Source: a virus
Direction: 5' to 3' (one strand)
DNA length: 64,000 nucleotides
Virus record (IMG/VR): IMGVR_UViG_3300042868_008486
Coordinates: 44,810-108,809 of that record
Shown here in pieces: positions 1,879-61,986 of this stretch (position 1 is the first letter of the stretch; the number at the start of each line of letters is the position of its first letter). A program made the position numbers and the translations under genes. The notes beneath the pieces are model-generated. The model saw only the letters and a program-made list of their open reading frames with translations, made no database searches and was not told where the DNA came from.

Positions 1879-3207
1879 TTAATTTGATAATGGTGCTTTT
1901 ATTGTTGGATGTGATTGATATCCGATAATCTCAAAATCCGTAATTTCCATATTCTTAATAAGAACATCAATATCACTATGTAAAGGACCAACACCACATT
2001 CACCTGATTCAGTAGGCCAAAACTCAGTGTTAATGTTTAATGTTGGTAATTGAAATGGTGTCCTTGTTCTTGTCGGAATTTTAAATTCATCACAAACTTT
2101 TGTGAATTCTTCATCACTCATTCCTTCCTGTATCTTAGACAAATCTAATTTGGGGTTTTCATAACACATACAAACTCTTTCATCAACTCGTAATTCTCTA
2201 CCAATTTGTTCTTTTGCTTGTTCAATATGGTTTGAATATAAATGAGTATCTCCCAAGTTTCCAATTAATTGGTCAGGAACCATATTCACCTCTTTAGCAA
2301 TGATTTCCAATAACAATCCATAAGATGCAATATTGAATGGTAAACCTAAGAATGTATCTACTGAACGTTGATTCCACATTAATGAGATTGCTCTTCTTTG
2401 AGGAACTACATTAGTCCCTAAATTATCTAAAAATTCGTGTCTGTATACTAATTTTAATTCTTCAGTTTCATCAGGGTGATGTGTTTTAGTTAAACAATCT
2501 TCTCTTATTAACGGATTAAATTTATCTGCTATTGACAATCTCTCATCTAAACTCAACTCTCTTGTATAAACTTGAAATCCATAATGACAAGGTGGTAGTA
2601 CCATTGAATCCAATTCTCCAACATTCCAAGCATTTACCATCAAACGTCTTGAATCAGGATTTGTTTTAAGTTCGTTGATTAAACACGAGATTTGGTCAAT
2701 AACTGTTTGGTCAGCTTCTTCATAAATGTTTTCATATGAACCGTCAGTTGAAAAATACATTTTCTTTTTAGTCCATCTTCTCCATTGCTTACCATACACA
2801 GGACCTAAATCACCCCACTTCTTAGCAAACTCATCATCTGTTTTGATTTTGTTGATGAATTCTTCTTGCGTGTAGGAACGTTTGACTGTTTCATCCTCAT
2901 AAAATTCGTGACCATCTTTATAAGCGGTACAGTAATTCTTATAAGCATCACCATCCCAAATATGACAATCATTATCAACAAGGTATTTGATGTTTGTATC
3001 ACCACGTAAGAACCATAACAATTCGGTAATAACTCCTTTCATATACATTTTCTTTGTTGTAAGAAGAGGAAATCCGTCCTTCATATTATGACGAATGGTA
3101 TAACCAAAGATAGATTTAGTTCCCGTACCGGTTCTATCTTTCTTATCAACCCCATAATCTAATATGGTTTGAAGTAAATCTGTGTATTGTTTATCTAACG
3201 TGTTCAT
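1879..3207 (-). CDS. thyA: Thymidylate synthase
   Basis: 442 aa, against about 264 for E. coli ThyA. It converts dUMP to dTMP with methylenetetrahydrofolate. Recognised motifs are DRTGTGT near residue 25, the catalytic Cys207 in VLPPCHYGFQVY, QRSVDTFLGLPFNIASY and GDTHLYSNH. The extra length comes from an insert between about residues 85 and 170 and a second after Cys207 (TRELSLDERLSIADK onward) before the RRAISLMWNQRS strand. With the DHFR at 5859 it gives the phage its own dTMP cycle. Confidence 0.97.
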   Translation of the reverse strand: MNTLDKQYTDLLQTILDYGVDKKDRTGTGTKSIFGYTIRHNMKDGFPLLTTKKMYMKGVITELLWFLRGDTNIKYLVDNDCHIWDGDAYKNYCTAYKDGHEFYEDETVKRSYTQEEFINKIKTDDEFAKKWGDLGPVYGKQWRRWTKKKMYFSTDGSYENIYEEADQTVIDQISCLINELKTNPDSRRLMVNAWNVGELDSMVLPPCHYGFQVYTRELSLDERLSIADKFNPLIREDCLTKTHHPDETEELKLVYRHEFLDNLGTNVVPQRRAISLMWNQRSVDTFLGLPFNIASYGLLLEIIAKEVNMVPDQLIGNLGDTHLYSNHIEQAKEQIGRELRVDERVCMCYENPKLDLSKIQEGMSDEEFTKVCDEFKIPTRTRTPFQLPTLNINTEFWPTESGECGVGPLHSDIDVLIKNMEITDFEIIGYQSHPTIKAPLSN

Positions 3208-7288: not shown

Positions 7289-7843
7289 TTATGCAAATTC
7301 AATTTCACACAGATACCCCATTTTATCTGTGTAATTTTTTTGAAAGTGTTTTGCAGTTAACCATAAAAATTCATCACGATATTCATTAACAACTGCGAAA
7401 TAATCATCATCATCATTTTCAACAGGGTACAATTCATCAAATGGTCTACCACCATCAACGATTGTGCTGAAATCAATATCAATCCAAACCGTAACATCTT
7501 TATCTTTAGTGTTAACATCAATACGAGCGAACCTAACGTCACCACTTAAATCATCATCACTTAATGTTATTTGGATGTAATCTTTCGACATATATAAATG
7601 GGGACTTGATGTTGATTGGTTAAACTTATAACCATCTTCCTCAAAATACTTTAATGGGTTTATGTTATGTTCTTCATTCCATTCTAAAACCCAACCTTCA
7701 AGATGATGGTGAAAAGACATCGGCATACGCATTAACTTCATCAAATTTTCATCAATTGACGCATACCCCCGTTTATCCCAAATCTTTCTAAATGATTTTT
7801 TCCAAACATCCATTAATTGGTCCTCAGTTATTAATACTTTCAT
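7289..7843 (-). CDS. Leader-bearing hypothetical protein, 184 aa
   Basis: The N-terminus MKVLITEDQLMDVWKKS carries I-T-E. A mixed alpha/beta acidic domain follows (DDDDYFAVV). TATTTATG overlaps the start region. It is 5 bp from the glycosyltransferase-like gene and probably co-transcribed with it. Function unknown. Confidence 0.75.
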   Translation of the reverse strand: MKVLITEDQLMDVWKKSFRKIWDKRGYASIDENLMKLMRMPMSFHHHLEGWVLEWNEEHNINPLKYFEEDGYKFNQSTSSPHLYMSKDYIQITLSDDDLSGDVRFARIDVNTKDKDVTVWIDIDFSTIVDGGRPFDELYPVENDDDDYFAVVNEYRDEFLWLTAKHFQKNYTDKMGYLCEIEFA

Positions 7844-7848
7844 AAATA

Positions 7849-8481
7849 TTATGCGTCTTTACGTTTACCTAAACCGGCCTTTGGTATGTAAACAATGGGT
7901 TCCCATAACCAACTAACATTAGGTATTACTTTTGTTAATTTTTCTATAACACGGAAATCACTACAAGACCAAGAATCCCAAATAGCATCTTTCGAATATT
8001 TGAAATTGAATCCAATACAGGACCCCCCAATTTTAGTTAATCTCATATCACCATAACTAAGAGGTAATGTTCTACCACTTGAAAATTTCATCCTCCAAGC
8101 AACTAAAGTATCATCATCAACGGTGTTGATTTTCTTGACCACTTTTTGAACTGAATTTTTATCAATAAATAAATCATCATCATCCAAATAAATTATCCAA
8201 CCATCAGTAACTTTTTCATTTAAAATGTTAAGATATAGGTTATGAACCATTTTACGACTTCTACGTGGTGGTTCAGTGTCCGATTGAATTACATTTTCTT
8301 TATCTATTAGGACATAATCTGTAATCCCCATTTCTTCAATATAAGGGATTGAATCTTTATCATCGGTACAAACAATATGTCGAATATTCTTATATGTTTG
8401 AGACCTAACAGATTCAACATTCCTTTTAAAACCTATTGGTCGTCCTGAAGTTCTTGTTAAAATATTAATTAATGGTTCCAT
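7849..8481 (-). CDS. GT-A type glycosyltransferase
   Basis: 210 aa. The N-terminus (INILTRTSGRPIGFKRNVESV) and IIYLDDDDLFIDKNSVQ, with its metal-binding acidic cluster, are typical of family 2-like transferases that use nucleotide sugars. CIGFNFKYSKDAIWDSW fits the acceptor side. It could glycosylate phage DNA, virion proteins or the host surface; context does not decide. Confidence 0.8.
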   Translation of the reverse strand: MEPLINILTRTSGRPIGFKRNVESVRSQTYKNIRHIVCTDDKDSIPYIEEMGITDYVLIDKENVIQSDTEPPRRSRKMVHNLYLNILNEKVTDGWIIYLDDDDLFIDKNSVQKVVKKINTVDDDTLVAWRMKFSSGRTLPLSYGDMRLTKIGGSCIGFNFKYSKDAIWDSWSCSDFRVIEKLTKVIPNVSWLWEPIVYIPKAGLGKRKDA

Positions 8482-8496
8482 ATATTAATATAAATA

Positions 8497-8889
8497 TTAG
8501 AAAAAAAAGTTACGGGAATGGATTCTACAAACTTCATCATTCAAATGATTCAAATATCTCCCAAATGTTTGGTCAGACCTAATTCCCGACATTATTCCCT
8601 TATCTAAATTGGGGTGTAACATAACAGTATTCTTATCCCCACCATATATATAGATTTTATTATGAAATGGGAACCCATTCATACTATAATAAATTGCGTC
8701 AAAATCAAAAACTTTACCACCAATACGATATCTAACATCAAAACTATTAGGGTCGTACATTGTATAATAATTAGTATTAATCCTGACAAAATAATGGTCC
8801 TCAAAATAACTAATAGTATACTCGCAAGGACAAAAGAAATTCATAAATTTCTCAACTATCCTAAATTTTTTCAATTCAATCTCATCCAT
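8497..8889 (-). CDS. Hypothetical protein, 130 aa
   Basis: Not recognised. Aromatic-rich beta structure (YTISYFEDHYFVRINTNYYTMYD) with a C-terminal RIHSRNFFF. It lies between the glycosyltransferase and a divergent + strand operon. Confidence 0.6.
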   Translation of the reverse strand: MDEIELKKFRIVEKFMNFFCPCEYTISYFEDHYFVRINTNYYTMYDPNSFDVRYRIGGKVFDFDAIYYSMNGFPFHNKIYIYGGDKNTVMLHPNLDKGIMSGIRSDQTFGRYLNHLNDEVCRIHSRNFFF

Positions 8890-8941
8890 ATTAGAATATT
8901 AAATAAAATTTCATTAATTTAGTAGTATCAAATATTGAATT

Positions 8942-9301
8942 ATGGAAAATTTTGACAAAATAAGAGAAGTCGTAATCAAATGTATCAAACGAAAATACGA
9001 CAATAGTAAAATAACCTTCACCAATGATAATAACATATATCAACTTGATATTCGAATTTTTAGTAATTCCCCAACAAAACAATTAGAATGTGTTTGTGAT
9101 GTTGAAGAGATATTAAAATTATGTCACATTAAAGAAGATATTAAAATTAGAGTTAATGACCGTAATCGGTTATTTATTCATATTGACGTAATAAGTGAAA
9201 ATTTAGTAAAATTTAGGAAAAAATTGGATTTACCAACACCAGTAATTACGGCAATACAGAATAGTTCTTATGGAATACATTGTAATACTGACCCAATATG
9301 A
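8942..9301 (+). CDS. Hypothetical protein, 119 aa
   Basis: First gene of a three-gene + strand operon. It has an N-terminal helix (FDKIREVVIKCIKRKY) then strands (IYQLDIRIFSN). It resembles the third gene (9651) in length and layout, so the two may be paralogues. Function unknown. Confidence 0.65.
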   Translation: MENFDKIREVVIKCIKRKYDNSKITFTNDNNIYQLDIRIFSNSPTKQLECVCDVEEILKLCHIKEDIKIRVNDRNRLFIHIDVISENLVKFRKKLDLPTPVITAIQNSSYGIHCNTDPI

Positions 9302-9651
9302 TAGATAATATTTTCAGAAAATTCTTTTGGAGTATAGACGCAATTGAATTACGTTCACAAGATAGAGTTATGACCGTTTACGGTAGACAAGTAGGGTATT
9401 TAACTCTAGGTATCGCACCTAAAAATAAATTAGTTCCTGACGAACTAAAAAGTTATAATGGTGTTGTTGATACCGTCAAAATAATTATTCGTGACCACGC
9501 CAACATTAATCAAGCCCCACTAAGAGAATGGGGTAAAATGTGTTGTATTAAAGAATGTGATTTTGACCATTACATTAAACAAGTTTATATTGAAACATTA
9601 CAACGTAAACGACGAGAAGAATTAATTAAGCCACATAAATTCATTTGGTGA
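9298..9651 (+). CDS. Hypothetical protein, 117 aa
   Basis: Second gene of the operon, overlapping the first by ATGA. It carries a CC pair (WGKMCCIKECDFDHY) and a basic C-terminus (RKRREELIKPHKF). Not recognised. Confidence 0.65.
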   Translation: MIDNIFRKFFWSIDAIELRSQDRVMTVYGRQVGYLTLGIAPKNKLVPDELKSYNGVVDTVKIIIRDHANINQAPLREWGKMCCIKECDFDHYIKQVYIETLQRKRREELIKPHKFIW

Positions 9652-9989
9652 TGAAAGATATTGATATTAGATTATTGATTAAAAAAACAATATGTAAAAT
9701 GGAGTCCCCATTCTCTTCGGTTAATGTGAAGATTTCAAAATTAATGTACTTAGATAGTGAAGTTTCACAACTATCTTTCAGTGCATCAACATATTATCTT
9801 GTAACACAAAATAAAAATATTTATGAAATTGAAGTCATATACCACCCCCGTTCATTTCTGTCATCAACATTTGAACAAAGAAATAAATACGAGAATAGAG
9901 CAACCAATTCAATACAATTAATGTTAGGTGGGTTATTAAAAGTCGAACCTGAAGATATCAAACTCAAGTTCATTATTGGGGGATGTTAA
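9651..9989 (+). CDS. Hypothetical protein, 112 aa
   Basis: Third gene of the operon. The start is the ATG in TGATG overlapping the previous stop. N-terminal helix (DIRLLIKKTICKM), central strands, C-terminal LKFIIGGC. Similar in plan to the 8942 product. Confidence 0.65.
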   Translation: MKDIDIRLLIKKTICKMESPFSSVNVKISKLMYLDSEVSQLSFSASTYYLVTQNKNIYEIEVIYHPRSFLSSTFEQRNKYENRATNSIQLMLGGLLKVEPEDIKLKFIIGGC

Positions 9990-10222
9990 TACTGTTTCAG
10001 TAGAATAGTTGTGTCACTATCGGATTTGAAATTTTCAACTGACTTGTAAGTGTTGTAAGTTACCTTCAACACTTTTTCATCATTGGGGATATTAACATAC
10101 CCGTCGAAATTAGAATAATAAATAGACTTGTCAGTGGTTACTTTAACTGCCGGTAATGTCTCTTTGGTCTCAACATCTAAGAACCAAACCTTAATCATCA
10201 ATGCTAATATTACTGTTTTCAT
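9986..10222 (-). CDS. Small carboxypeptidase-regulatory-like beta-sandwich protein
   Basis: 78 aa. VWFLDVETKETLPAVKV followed by the G-Y-V turn of NFDGYVNIP matches one unit of the CarboxypepD_reg-like fold common in Bacteroidetes surface proteins. A weak N-terminal hydrophobic stretch (VILALMIKVWFL) could be a signal or a first strand. Convergent with the 9651 gene. Confidence 0.6.
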   Translation of the reverse strand: MKTVILALMIKVWFLDVETKETLPAVKVTTDKSIYYSNFDGYVNIPNDEKVLKVTYNTYKSVENFKSDSDTTILLKQY

Positions 10223-12711: not shown

Positions 12712-13140
12712 TTAAATTTTAGTCCTCATCCAACTGAACAAATTTGCGAAATTAGATTTTACTGTTTTGATTCCCCTTAAATTATAAACCTCACCCAACC
12801 ACTTCTCTGTAACTTTTTGAATAACAAGGTTGGTCAAATCAAAATATTCATCCAAAACCCACCAAATATCAGAACTAATGTAAACTTCATCATTTCGTCT
12901 GTTGTAAACCATTAAGTTATAACCTTTTTTATAACGAAATAACGTCCAATCACCATCTGTTTCAGATTGAACAACTTCCAAATCATCAAACAGGTGTAAG
13001 AACTCCATAAAAGTATCAATATTCAATACTTTACAAAAAGTATCAAACCCACCCATTAAGTCAATAACCTGTTTAACCCCATTGGTTTTAATCAACTCTT
13101 TAAGTCTCTCAACTTTATTTTCGGTTATTATTATTTTCAT
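12712..13140 (-). CDS. Leader-bearing GG-motif protein, 142 aa
   Basis: MKIIITENKVERLKEL is followed by VKQVIDLMGGFDTFCKVL, so it joins a prohead-type leader to the GG motif. The C-terminus has the family tail helix (VTEKWLGEVYNLRGIKTV). Closely related to the next gene upstream (FLHLFDDLE in both). Overlaps it by ATGA. Confidence 0.8.
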   Translation of the reverse strand: MKIIITENKVERLKELIKTNGVKQVIDLMGGFDTFCKVLNIDTFMEFLHLFDDLEVVQSETDGDWTLFRYKKGYNLMVYNRRNDEVYISSDIWWVLDEYFDLTNLVIQKVTEKWLGEVYNLRGIKTVKSNFANLFSWMRTKI

Positions 13141-13883
13141 ATCATTTTAATATAACTAGGACCCAGTAAAGGTTCTGTTCTCTTTAAGTTTAAGTGGAAA
13201 ACATCTTCAGCCCACTCCTTAGTGTATTCAATAATACTGTAGTATTCAATACCAAGTTTACCATTTAAAAAATCCCAAATTTCTTTTTCACTTATGTAAA
13301 GACACTTTAGGAATTTATCGTAAATCATCACATTATTACCTTCCTGATATCTAAATAAAATGTAATCATTTTTATCTTTTGATTGAACTGCCTCTAAATC
13401 ATCAAATAGATGTAAAAAGTCCATCGGACCACTAAGATTAAATATTTTACAAAATTTATCCCAACCACCCATTAATTTAATTGTGGTATTAGGTCCTTCA
13501 CGATTAAGTATATATTTAAGTTTATCAACTTTATTTTCAGTAATAATACCGTCTTCAAGTTTACCATTAATTAATATTGGGACAATCCAAGGTTTTCCTG
13601 TGTAGTATAATTTTTCACGTAAATATTGTGCAAATCCTTGAACATCATCTTCATCAAAGTAAGCGTCTGCATAAACATCAATATAAACACTTAATGATGG
13701 TTTATGTTTGATATTTATCACTTTAACTTTATCTATATGGCTAAACAATGTTAGATACCAATTACTAGCACTAATCTCTTCATTACGATAACGTTCCTTT
13801 AGTACGGATAATTCTTCATCAATCAATCGTTGGAATAACCCAAAAACCTTTTTATTTACTTCCTCGTTAATTAATATCTTCAT
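13137..13883 (-). CDS. Leader-bearing GG-motif protein with N-terminal extension, 248 aa
   Basis: Leader MKILINEEVNKK (I-N-E). Residues 1-110 form a separate alpha/beta domain. An internal segment near residue 113 (GIITENKVDKLKYIL) resembles another leader and is followed by NTTIKLMGGWDKFCKIF. It looks like two neighbouring leader genes fused. Function unknown. Confidence 0.75.
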   Translation of the reverse strand: MKILINEEVNKKVFGLFQRLIDEELSVLKERYRNEEISASNWYLTLFSHIDKVKVINIKHKPSLSVYIDVYADAYFDEDDVQGFAQYLREKLYYTGKPWIVPILINGKLEDGIITENKVDKLKYILNREGPNTTIKLMGGWDKFCKIFNLSGPMDFLHLFDDLEAVQSKDKNDYILFRYQEGNNVMIYDKFLKCLYISEKEIWDFLNGKLGIEYYSIIEYTKEWAEDVFHLNLKRTEPLLGPSYIKMI

Positions 13884-14373
13884 TGATATAACTGTTTAAT
13901 TTATATTTCTCTATAATTTGTTTGAATATCTGAGTTCTACCTCGTTTACCAATTGTATTTCTTTTTGATATAAATGAATATCCAAATCCTGAGTCACCAC
14001 AAGTACCAAGAACTCTCCTATACTCTTGACCACTATGTCCATTAAATGGTGTAGACGCGTATGCAGTGAACTTATAATTCATACCACCACTAGTCCATTT
14101 AAAATCACCAAGTTTCTTTTCTTTCTTATTCCAACTATCTTCTAAATTAAGTGACTCAATTAATAAATTGTCGATATACATATTCTCACCTGTCGAATCG
14201 AATTTATATGGGACAAAACCTGTTGATTTATAAAATTCCTTTAAATCATCGTTAAATGCTACTTTCAACAAAGTTTTAATACCACCAACCAATTTAACCA
14301 CCTCATTAACACCTTTAGTATTAATTAACTCACGTAATTTTTCACCGGCTGATTCTTTAATCAAAATTCTCAT
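13867..14373 (-). CDS. Leader-bearing GG-motif protein, 168 aa
   Basis: The start MRILIKESAGEKL is chosen from TATTTAT 4 nt upstream; I-K-E is the possible cleavage site. Then VNEVVKLVGGIKTLL. The C-terminal half is basic (KRNTIGKRGRTQIFKQII) and could touch nucleic acid. It overlaps the next gene by 17 bp. Confidence 0.75.
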   Translation of the reverse strand: MRILIKESAGEKLRELINTKGVNEVVKLVGGIKTLLKVAFNDDLKEFYKSTGFVPYKFDSTGENMYIDNLLIESLNLEDSWNKKEKKLGDFKWTSGGMNYKFTAYASTPFNGHSGQEYRRVLGTCGDSGFGYSFISKRNTIGKRGRTQIFKQIIEKYKLNSYINEDIN

Positions 14374-14377
14374 ACCA

Positions 14378-14384
14378 ATAAATA
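14378..14384 (-). promoter_or_regulatory. TATTTAT start element
   Basis: Four nt before the ATG at 14373, directly after a terminator. Confidence 0.6.
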
Positions 14385-14400
14385 TAATAGAAAACAAAAA

Positions 14401-18454: not shown

Positions 18455-19285
18455 TTAGTTTTTCACTTGAATACTCTTCTTAAAGGTTAACGTAATATAT
18501 GTATCATCATTACCGTATAAGTATAATTTACCAAATAAATCATAACCTAAAAATTTACTTCTCATTCTCAAAGGTCCGGCAACATCTAACTCAGCATTAA
18601 CTGATTGATTTGGTGTCCGTCCGTCACCGTTTTTATTTAAATCCTCAACTTTAATAAATACTTGAAAAGGACCTGTAGATTGTTTAGGTTGTAATGTCAT
18701 AGGTACTTTTAAATCTGAAGTAACTAAATCAGTATCACCATTGAATACTTTAATAGTGATTGGGGTTGTTGAGTTATTAGTAAAACCTTCAAATTTAAAT
18801 GGTACTAACGTACCAACAGTTGTTGTTGTTGGTTTTTCCGATTTTGTTAAATCAAGATTTCTATTACCTACCAACTCTTCAACCTTACCTTCGCCAACTT
18901 GAGGTTTACCATCAGCACCAACTGTACCAACTTGAGGTTTACCATCAGCACCAACTGTACCAACTTGAGGTTTACCATCAGCACCAACTGTACCAACTTG
19001 AGGTTTACCATCAGCACCAACTTGAGGGTTATTTACAGGTGCTTTTCCACCCGGAAATTGAGTCTCCAATTTTTGAATGGTGGTGGGGTATTTTGATATA
19101 TCTAAAATCTTACCTGATTTATTCTTTGCAACCCACTTATTATTCTGTTTCTGATATGTATAATTTTTATCACCAGGAACTGTTAACCAAGTATTATCAA
19201 CAACCTGTTCTTTTAACAACCTTCTTTCTTCAAGTAATCTATTTGATTCCTGAATATGTCGTATCTTACTATAACTTCGATTCAT
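18455..19285 (-). CDS. Leader-bearing modular protein with tandem linker repeats, 276 aa
   Basis: The N-terminus MNRSYSKIRHIQESNRLLEE has I-Q-E and L-E-E. A small domain (VPGDKNYTYQKQNNKWVAK) follows that also occurs at the C-terminus of the 39344 product. Next come four copies of an 11-residue linker, GADGKPQVGTV, encoded by 33-bp direct repeats, and then a beta-sandwich-like C-terminal domain. Looks like a virion protein with a flexible spacer. Confidence 0.7.
   Translation of the reverse strand: MNRSYSKIRHIQESNRLLEERRLLKEQVVDNTWLTVPGDKNYTYQKQNNKWVAKNKSGKILDISKYPTTIQKLETQFPGGKAPVNNPQVGADGKPQVGTVGADGKPQVGTVGADGKPQVGTVGADGKPQVGEGKVEELVGNRNLDLTKSEKPTTTTVGTLVPFKFEGFTNNSTTPITIKVFNGDTDLVTSDLKVPMTLQPKQSTGPFQVFIKVEDLNKNGDGRTPNQSVNAELDVAGPLRMRSKFLGYDLFGKLYLYGNDDTYITLTFKKSIQVKN
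18896..19021. repeat. 33-bp tandem coding repeat
   Basis: Three full and one partial unit, nearly identical in DNA, encoding the GADGKPQVGTV linker. The near identity suggests recent slippage or recombination. Confidence 0.9.
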
Positions 19286-32386: not shown

Positions 32387-32429
32387 AATTTCAGATGTAT
32401 TTATTACTCTCGTTTATATTATAGGGGTA

Positions 32430-32990
32430 AGATTTACCCTCGTTTAATTTAATGTATCTTCCACCTCATCTTCGCAGTCATCTAATAGGGACCACGTTGA
32501 ATCTACCTTAATATTTAAGGTCTCTTCCACCGAAAACGGTTGAATTTTATTTGAATGGTTTGTTGAGAGTACCTTACAATTTAGGGTGTCTTCCACCACA
32601 CCACGATTCTCATTTTCATCAAAATAAGTTGAATCTACCTTAATATTTAGGGTCTCTTCCACATTTAAGTGTTGTGATAACCCAAAATCAACTGATTCTA
32701 CCTTACAATTTAGGGTGTCTTCCACCACCTCTACCAATCGTTGACCATAATTCTTTGTTGTGAGTACCTTACAATTTAGGGTGTCTTCCACCTTTGAAAT
32801 AAGAATTAATTCATTCGGATTAGTTGAGAGTACCTTACAATTTAGGGTGTCTTGCACCAGCTTGCGTTGTGAAGACAATCGTTCCGGTGTTGAGAGTACC
32901 TTACAATTTAGGGTGTCTTGCACCGCGGTATTTTCATCTAAGTTGTGTAATTCAGTTCTACCTACCTTAGCATTTAGTTTATTTTCCACC
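32430..32990. repeat. CRISPR-like array inside an open reading frame: 36-bp repeats, 27-30-bp unique spacers
   Basis: Nine repeats start at 32430, 32496, 32562, 32628, 32691, 32757, 32823, 32889 and 32955. The first is truncated or degenerate and the last degenerate. The eight spacers are 30 bp (one 27 bp) and unlike each other. Internal repeats begin GTTG (ACTG in one) and end in TTCCACC or TTGCACC. ACCTTA near base 10 can pair with TAGGGT (or TAAGGT in the 32496 copy, a compensatory change) around a 5-nt loop. Size and hairpin resemble type VI-B arrays, but the whole array is translated in the minus-strand gene 32444-33235 and no cas gene is in the window. Confidence 0.8.
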
Positions 32991-33235
32991 CATTCAGAGA
33001 TTAATTCCTGAAAGACCTCACTAGACATAGAAAATAACGTCATATAAGATTTGAAGAAATCATATCTCCACCACAGGTAATTGGTTTCAACTTTATATTC
33101 TAAGTACCAATATTTTTCTTCTCGGTTAACAAACCAAATACCTTTTGTGTTTGGGTTATAAATAATCTCACATTTATTGAGTTCTGTCTCAATCTGTTTA
33201 ATAAACCCTTGTTTAAATTTCTCAGGATAATTCAT
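32444..33235 (-). CDS. GG-family-like protein with eight C-terminal 22-residue repeats
   Basis: 263 aa. Residues 1-85 form a compact domain whose end (VFQELISEWVENKLNAKV) matches the tail helix of GG-motif proteins. That tail is then repeated: VEDTLNCKVLST or VEETLNIKVDST, each followed by 9-10 residues that differ completely between units (PERLSSQRKL, NPNELILISK, KNYGQRLVEV and others). The conserved 12 residues correspond to the 36-bp DNA repeat. The protein ends within the first repeat (EVEDTLN). Function unknown; the array may matter as protein, RNA or DNA. Confidence 0.7.
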   Translation of the reverse strand: MNYPEKFKQGFIKQIETELNKCEIIYNPNTKGIWFVNREEKYWYLEYKVETNYLWWRYDFFKSYMTLFSMSSEVFQELISEWVENKLNAKVGRTELHNLDENTAVQDTLNCKVLSTPERLSSQRKLVQDTLNCKVLSTNPNELILISKVEDTLNCKVLTTKNYGQRLVEVVEDTLNCKVESVDFGLSQHLNVEETLNIKVDSTYFDENENRGVVEDTLNCKVLSTNHSNKIQPFSVEETLNIKVDSTWSLLDDCEDEVEDTLN

Positions 33236-60575: not shown

Positions 60576-61115
60576 TTATTCTATCACATTAAACTCGTCA
60601 ATTTCAACTTGAATACCCGTGTATTTTGTTATATTATCCTTTAGATAATCTTTAATATCGTTAACTATCATATCCCGAATATCCGACCCTTCAGACATAT
60701 CTAACTCCGAATAAAATTCAGATAGTGATGAATCTCTATATGTATATTCTTCTAAGTCATCATCCCAAAACTGAGCATTATATAACTCACCTTCAACATC
60801 CACAGACAATTCAAGTTCGTTCCAATCATTCATTTTACTATCCCAAATCCCAAAAAATAACTCACCATCTAATTGAGATTTGAATGGAATGTTGTTTGGT
60901 AATTTAGAAATTAATTCCTTAGTTTTTTCAATGGCAATTTCCATACCACCATTGTACTCAATTAGATATTCATATAATGATTCATCTAAAAATGGTAATC
61001 TAAACAATTTAAATAAGTCAGGTTCAACGGTAATTTCTTTACCACTTGATTTAAGTTTATCCCAATATCTAAAAATCCCTTTTTTAATATGGTTTTCTGT
61101 TATTATTATTTTCAT
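60576..61115 (-). CDS. Leader-bearing protein, 179 aa
   Basis: The start MKIIITENHIKKGIFRYWDK (I-T-E) overlaps the upstream stop by ATGA. Later PFLDESLYEYLIEYNGGMEI and an acidic C-terminal domain. It resembles the 7289 product in plan (LDExL...). Function unknown. Confidence 0.75.
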   Translation of the reverse strand: MKIIITENHIKKGIFRYWDKLKSSGKEITVEPDLFKLFRLPFLDESLYEYLIEYNGGMEIAIEKTKELISKLPNNIPFKSQLDGELFFGIWDSKMNDWNELELSVDVEGELYNAQFWDDDLEEYTYRDSSLSEFYSELDMSEGSDIRDMIVNDIKDYLKDNITKYTGIQVEIDEFNVIE

Positions 61116-61534
61116 TCTACCCAACCAACTTTAAGACCTGTTTTATCTTGAAACCATTTTTTAAATGTATCTTTCCATTCATAACCATCAAATAATTCAT
61201 CCAAGTCATTATACACCCAACCAGCAATATCCAATTTACTACTCTCAGTATCATCATATGTGAAATAGTCATAAGCATTTCGGTCATTTACAACAAATGA
61301 GAATGAGCCATATCTTTCAACCTCATCTTGATAATAATCTTTATGTTCCCAATTATAATCAGGATAATACTTCTCACTTAAATACTGATAGATATAACCA
61401 GGAACACTATCGTACCCTAATACGGTCGCTAAGGTTTTAAATCCGCCCATTAATTGAGCGGCTTGTTTAACACCTAAATCTTTTATTAATTGATTTAGTT
61501 TTTCGATTTTATTTTCTGTGATTATTATCTTCAT
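61112..61534 (-). CDS. Leader-bearing GG-motif protein, 140 aa
   Basis: MKIIITENKIEKLNQLIKDL, then VKQAAQLMGGFKTLATVLGY. Acidic and aromatic middle, tail FDGYEWKDTFKKWFQDKTG. Shares a base with the upstream gene. Confidence 0.8.
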   Translation of the reverse strand: MKIIITENKIEKLNQLIKDLGVKQAAQLMGGFKTLATVLGYDSVPGYIYQYLSEKYYPDYNWEHKDYYQDEVERYGSFSFVVNDRNAYDYFTYDDTESSKLDIAGWVYNDLDELFDGYEWKDTFKKWFQDKTGLKVGWVE

Positions 61535-61986
61535 TATAAATAGTATTTTACCATTAAATCAAATATTTGGTTAAATATCTTAGTATTCAATTCATCAAAT
61601 TCTATGTCATAAGCATCATACCCATCTTCATCCACCAACTCATCATTTTCATCAAACTCCCACACCTGAATTGTCGCCCAACCTTGTTTGACACAATCAA
61701 CATAATATTTAAGGTCAGTACCATTATTTGTTTTGTGAGTACCAACTAAAATAAGTTTTTCAGTTAAATCGGACATATAAATCCGTCCATTAACTTTTAA
61801 GTCATCATCAGATTCAATTAACTGATTAAGTAATTCAATTTTATGTTCCTTACTGTCAAAATAATCAGGCAATATACGTTTAAAATTAACATACCCACTC
61901 ATTGACTTAACAACGGTTAACACACTCGTTGTTTGAATCAATCGTTTAAGTTTCTCAATTTTATTTTCATTGATTATTATTTTCAT
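61534..61986 (-). CDS. Leader-bearing GG-motif protein, 150 aa
   Basis: MKIIINENKIEKLKRLIQTT (I-N-E), then VVKSMSGYVNFKRILPDYFD, where GG is replaced by SG. The tail is similar to the 52374/52836 products (IFDLMVKYYL). First gene of a three-gene leader operon. Confidence 0.8.
   Translation of the reverse strand: MKIIINENKIEKLKRLIQTTSVLTVVKSMSGYVNFKRILPDYFDSKEHKIELLNQLIESDDDLKVNGRIYMSDLTEKLILVGTHKTNNGTDLKYYVDCVKQGWATIQVWEFDENDELVDEDGYDAYDIEFDELNTKIFNQIFDLMVKYYL

Follow-up and report, generated by a model that had tools for sequence, protein, structure and literature searches.

A translated phage gene carries an array of repeats that resemble CRISPR direct repeats

A repeat/spacer array within an open reading frame

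The analysed stretch of DNA (the window) comprises 64,000 nucleotides and belongs to a virus record of 186,832 bases. Gene 32444-33235 on its minus strand encodes 263 amino acids plus the stop codon and consists of a folded N-terminal domain followed by a translated repeat/spacer array. The first-pass annotation had described nine 36-nt repeats and eight spacers (30 nt each, except for one of 27 nt), with degenerate end repeats, inside this gene; our coordinates agree with that layout, and the reading frame is open throughout. Residues 1-82 (32990-33235) form the N-terminal part that is conserved in alignments. The array lies on the same strand and, in the coding direction, begins with a degenerate direct-repeat-like (DR-like) repeat at 32955-32990 (WVENKLNAKVGRT), which has a weak DR score (p ~0.01). 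It is followed by spacer 1 (32925-32954), repeat 2 (32889-32924), spacer 2 (32859-32888), repeat 3 (32823-32858), spacer 3 (32793-32822), repeat 4 (32757-32792), spacer 4 (32727-32756), repeat 5 (32691-32726), the 27-nt spacer 5 (32664-32690), repeat 6 (32628-32663), spacer 6 (32598-32627), repeat 7 (32562-32597), spacer 7 (32532-32561), repeat 8 (32496-32531), spacer 8 (32466-32495), and a terminal degenerate repeat that holds the stop codon (32430-32465). Within the array, repeat 4 has the top score in the type VI-B matrix described below. The period is 66 nt, with one interval of 63 nt. The core repeat has six matches at three or fewer mismatches, compared with none expected in shuffled sequence. 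Repeats 6 and 8 are of the IKVDST type, and repeat 8 has a perfect central palindrome. The hairpin previously proposed for the repeat (ACCTTA..TAAGGT) is present as a palindrome, but it is weak. A hairpin (GGGTAAATCTTACCC) with its following sequence, located just 3' of the array stop (32404-32440), is near-identical in the related phages G000 and G001. Elsewhere in the window, a perfect 33-bp tandem repeat of 3.9 copies occupies 18894-19022.

Conservation extends over exactly 36 nt. This block starts at the third, wobble position of the final variable codon and ends at the second base of a threonine codon. G is the final base of 37 of 40 spacers, and the information content drops from ~1.5 to ~0.3 bits at position 37, just past the block. 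In the protein, the tail consists of 22-residue units with ~12 near-constant residues (VEDTLNCKVLST) and ~10 hypervariable ones. AlphaFold2 predicted a confident domain at residues 1-97 (pLDDT ~85), whose final helix and strand come from the first repeat, and an unstructured array tail (pLDDT <45); the further repeat units are unlikely to fold by themselves according to this model. A PDB fold search with the protein gave no match, and Pfam, PHROG, and Rfam gave no convincing match. In BFVD, paralogues from uncultured phages were matched.

The GG family (12712-14397 and 61112-61986 in the window) is a paralogue-rich group of small phage proteins with an MKIIITE... start and a W-motif towards the C terminus. 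In some members there is one solitary CRISPR-repeat-like segment. In gene 12712-13140, a solitary DR-like 36-mer (12764-12799, minus strand) is located in the C-terminal coding part, in the same codon phase and after a Trp codon. Across the wider family, an older protein motif, W[VL]xExxNxKV, occupies the position of the repeats, and most other W-motif paralogues of the GG family show no CRISPR-repeat likeness. The link that had been drawn between the array and the C-terminal motif of this family is real. Judged from the predicted domain, the array looks as if it has grown from a C-terminal coding segment.

Likeness of the repeats to class 2 CRISPR repeats

Host repeats were first retrieved with a pattern common to the phage repeat and VI-B repeats, which biases that set. 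An independent set consisted of five repeats from arrays beside Bacteroidota hits to the F. beibuense Cas13b protein. A position matrix built from these five repeats was scanned over five phage genomes (1,117,166 positions), and the array and GG-family copies occupied nearly all of the top ranks. Matrices from 6 and 10 repeats had the same outcome. When the genes were recoded synonymously with the amino acids fixed, the observed score was reached in 4 of 20000 recodings for G000 and in 0 of 20000 for each of G002, L083, and L092; for the solitary GG-family 36-mer, it was reached in 1 of 20000. As the repeats are homologous, the array lineages do not count as separate trials, although any one of the tests is strong by itself. 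Column-permuted matrices never reached the observed score. It is the coding strand that resembles the CRISPR repeats, with sense and antisense matrix scores of 11 versus -10 in G000 and 32 versus 0 in L083. The earlier description of the array as CRISPR-like stands with a change of orientation: read as CRISPR repeats, the copies fit best on the coding strand rather than on the plus strand of the window. The best identity to the F. beibuense repeat is 26/36 in G000 and 29/36 in L083 (overall VI-B range of 18-29/36 on the coding strand), compared with 26-34/36 between a host repeat and its nearest other host repeat.

Because synonymous recodings almost never reach the observed score, the encoded protein does not account for the likeness, which goes beyond what that protein requires. 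The repeats very probably mimic CRISPR direct repeats. A purely protein-level repeat, in which recombining 22-residue units form a hypervariable and probably disordered tail and the CRISPR likeness is an accident or a by-product of DNA homogenisation, would agree with the frame being open in 14 of 14 array genes, with spacers that resemble in-frame coding sequence, and with the descent of the motif from a C-terminal helix and strand found in array-less paralogues. However, the likeness holds only with the actual codons, the block boundaries disregard codons, and most other W-motif paralogues lack the likeness. Furthermore, conservation between distant phages extends to synonymous sites (in distant gene pairs, the same codon is used at identical residues at a rate of 0.83 in the repeats versus 0.51 in the N-domain), and the 36/30 geometry is exactly that of class 2 arrays. 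We consider this explanation rather unlikely.

The coding-array repeats deviate from cas13b-linked repeats at position 2, where they have G instead of T. Because of this replacement, the terminal GUUG/CAAC stem retains 3-4 of 5 pairs, whereas the central stem is kept. The minimum-energy fold of the coding-array repeat is not the canonical whole-repeat hairpin. Among homologous genes in contig L081, a DR-like 36-mer lies on the antisense strand. WVExTLQ-motif homologues in L081 (5106, 8628, and 9020, plus strand), L082, and L084 carry such an antisense 36-mer, with second copies that are 65-67 nt off and out of frame.

Similar repeats are found in non-coding phage arrays of L080, L085, and L087, directly behind Cas12u3/Cas12f-like genes. 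We had considered these as VI-B-like phage arrays, and the adjoining Cas12u/f-like genes weaken the effector claim for the coding arrays. In these large phage contigs, the loci with Cas12u3/Cas12f-like genes and 36/30 arrays straight after them are at 40-1387 (L080), 633-1421 on the reverse strand (L085), and 7809-10007 (L087). The coding-array repeats are approximately as close to the Cas12u/f-type phage repeats as to those of VI-B, and those of G000-G004 are slightly closer to the former. Thus, the type VI-B comparison made in the first-pass annotation is backed by the independent matrix and the recoding tests, but not to the exclusion of Cas12u/f-type repeats. The assignment best fitted by the sequences is a Bacteroidota class 2 type, with Cas13b favoured and Cas12u/f a close second. 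No cas13b was found in G000-G004 or the other array contigs, which are mostly fragments, with a query that does detect bacterial cas13b. Likewise, no Cas12f-like gene was found in the array phages (most records being fragments), and no Cas12u/f effector adjoins the coding array. The reported absence of cas genes holds for both gene types across the whole 187-kb record. A separate 36/30 array from Tenacibaculum (L053) is located near an oligonucleotide-cyclase (CBASS-type) gene and a 1082-aa protein with R....H motifs, for which no PADLOC model gave a match.

Content and turnover of the spacers

The array is not unique to the window. Fourteen array genes, including that of the window, were identified in 10-11 uncultivated phage contigs of IMG/VR, and no relatives were found in bacterial genomes or cultured phages. 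The number of repeats ranges from one (L089) to sixteen (G001) per gene, and contig L083 has four copies of the gene. The nearest cultured phages for the thymidylate synthase of the window (1879-3207) are Flavobacterium phages (immuto), and a Bacteroidota host is therefore likely on the basis of this sequence relationship.

Across the 14 genes, there are 72 distinct 30-nt spacers and a few of other lengths, all of which keep the frame. Stop codons are absent from the 648 in-frame spacer codons of the array genes, whereas host VI-B spacers contain ~5-7% stops in every frame. A spurious ORF over a genuine non-coding CRISPR array is a known class of annotation error (PMC7673337), but it is already contradicted by this difference and by the conserved N-domain in the same frame, and we regard it as extremely improbable.

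In a phase model, 55% (40-67%) of the coding-array spacers correspond to sense, in-frame coding sequence. This signal exceeds that of a stop filter acting on randomly oriented coding DNA, which reached it in 0 of 150 simulations. For host VI-B spacers, the same model gives 35% antisense and 7% sense; guides against mRNA should be antisense. Comparison of the array spacers with their own and sister genomes (five phages) and with cultured phages yielded nothing beyond chance or shared arrays, as did an IMG/VR scan with spacers 2 and 4. Host VI-B spacers had no match in the array phages. The sense-coding nature of the spacers, together with the lack of matches, argues against a targeting array. 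A working mini-CRISPR array, whose gene-derived crRNAs would direct an effector of the host at competing phages or at the host itself, would be in line with the array architecture, the diversity and turnover of the spacers, and the phage-borne guide arrays already known (PMC6858448, PMC7162821). We judge it quite unlikely because, in addition to the missing matches and the sense orientation, no host array found in one pattern scan over genome contigs has near-identical repeats (best 29/36), and stop codons are excluded, which guides do not require.

Most spacers are replaced between related phages. The close relatives G000 and G001 have only the first, the last, and one internal spacer in common, and G003 and G004 have one. 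In the window, spacer 1 is identical in G001, spacer 8 is identical to the last spacer of G001, and spacer 6 has 29/30 identity to a G001 spacer at a different position. The spacers are exchanged in frame between related phages with the repeats retained, and the turnover lies inside the array, not at one of its ends. No leader sequence was identified for the array. The first-pass annotation had expected an ordinary repeat protein to show spacers without external matches, stable spacer content across relatives, and repeats conserved purely at the protein level. The first was found in the five phage genomes, the phage collection, and, for two spacers, IMG/VR. The second is contradicted by the replacement of spacers, and the third by repeats that are conserved at the nucleotide level too.

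The insertion of spacers by host Cas1-Cas2 at a cryptic landing site, with duplication of the repeat and survival of in-frame products that have no decoy role, would account for several of these features: 30-nt spacers and whole-repeat duplication match the adaptation of Flavobacterium columnare (PMC8092290), 66 is divisible by 3, and DR-like copies occur in both orientations among homologous genes. It is nonetheless distinctly unlikely in view of the in-frame sense signal beyond the stop filter, the internal turnover, and the lack of an identified leader. Also unlikely, in our estimation, is a dual-coding CRISPR array, in which one transcript would be both a translated hypervariable-tail gene and a source of CRISPR-type RNA, and host adaptation machinery would insert spacers in frame. 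If so, the phage would diversify a protein and an RNA simultaneously.

A putative decoy and its known counterparts

Starting from the observed array geometry, repeat mimicry, kept translation, spacer turnover, and lack of a detected effector gene, we propose, with a probability of approximately one half, that the phage mRNA also acts as a decoy that presents CRISPR-like repeats to a host Cas13b or a Cas12u relative. Between the two options offered in the first-pass annotation, a protein with hypervariable inserts or a coding segment that has become CRISPR-like or decoy RNA, the latter is the better, and from it we infer the decoy role. Cas13b recognises the whole-repeat hairpin and cuts at the 3' end of the repeat, and an excess of extraneous crRNA or repeat RNA reportedly sequesters Cas13b and cuts phage defence ~1000-fold (PMC13187072). 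The phage mRNA would display many repeat mimics to which the effector of the host binds, as a coding-embedded analogue of RNA anti-CRISPRs, and Cas13b, which itself binds and processes repeats, would be loaded with spacers guiding to nothing. Binding and sequestration of the effector would then benefit the phage. The frame may be kept because the small folded protein is also made from this gene, and the array has to remain translatable. The repeats may serve as recombination points, which would explain the rapid in-frame exchange of spacers. The G at position 2 weakens the terminal stem and, speculatively, might permit binding without normal processing.

Several observations count against the decoy. 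Spacer diversity is not required for it, binding of the effector would have to compete with translation, and the older W[VL]xExxNxKV motif is present at the repeat site. The antisense 36-mers in the L081 homologues are unexplained by a sense-mRNA decoy. The position-2 G, the incomplete terminal stem, the non-canonical fold, and the slightly closer match of the G000-G004 repeats to Cas12u/f-type repeats also count against it.

Among known systems, the type VI-B arrays of Bacteroidota Cas13b share the 36-nt repeat, the 30-nt spacer, and 18-29/36 repeat identity on the coding strand. The phage array differs in that it lacks cas13b, lies inside a translated gene, has sense-coding spacers, and has G instead of T at position 2. 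The Cas12u3/Cas12f-like phage arrays (L080, L085, and L087) have the same GTTG...GGTA..CAAC repeat class and 36/30 geometry, but they adjoin a Cas12u/f-like gene, are non-coding, and have stops in their spacers. Virus mini-CRISPR arrays (PMC6858448; huge phages, PMC7162821) are likewise effector-less arrays in viruses. They are, however, non-coding, with repeats identical to those of the host and spacers that target related viruses, and neither such repeats nor such targets were found for the phage array. RNA anti-CRISPRs (Racr; PMC10651486) are alike in being phage-borne mimics of CRISPR repeats without cas genes. The known Racr, which act against other CRISPR types, are solitary, non-coding small RNAs, whereas the phage repeats form arrays within an ORF, and the GG-family copies are solitary but coding. 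The Racr survey covered intergenic regions only, with ORFs masked, and reported none for type VI (PMC10651486). The present comparison suggests that CRISPR-repeat mimicry, for Cas13b or its neighbours, can hide in translated phage genes in arrayed rather than single form, and that ORF masking in surveys may overlook a class of counter-defence.
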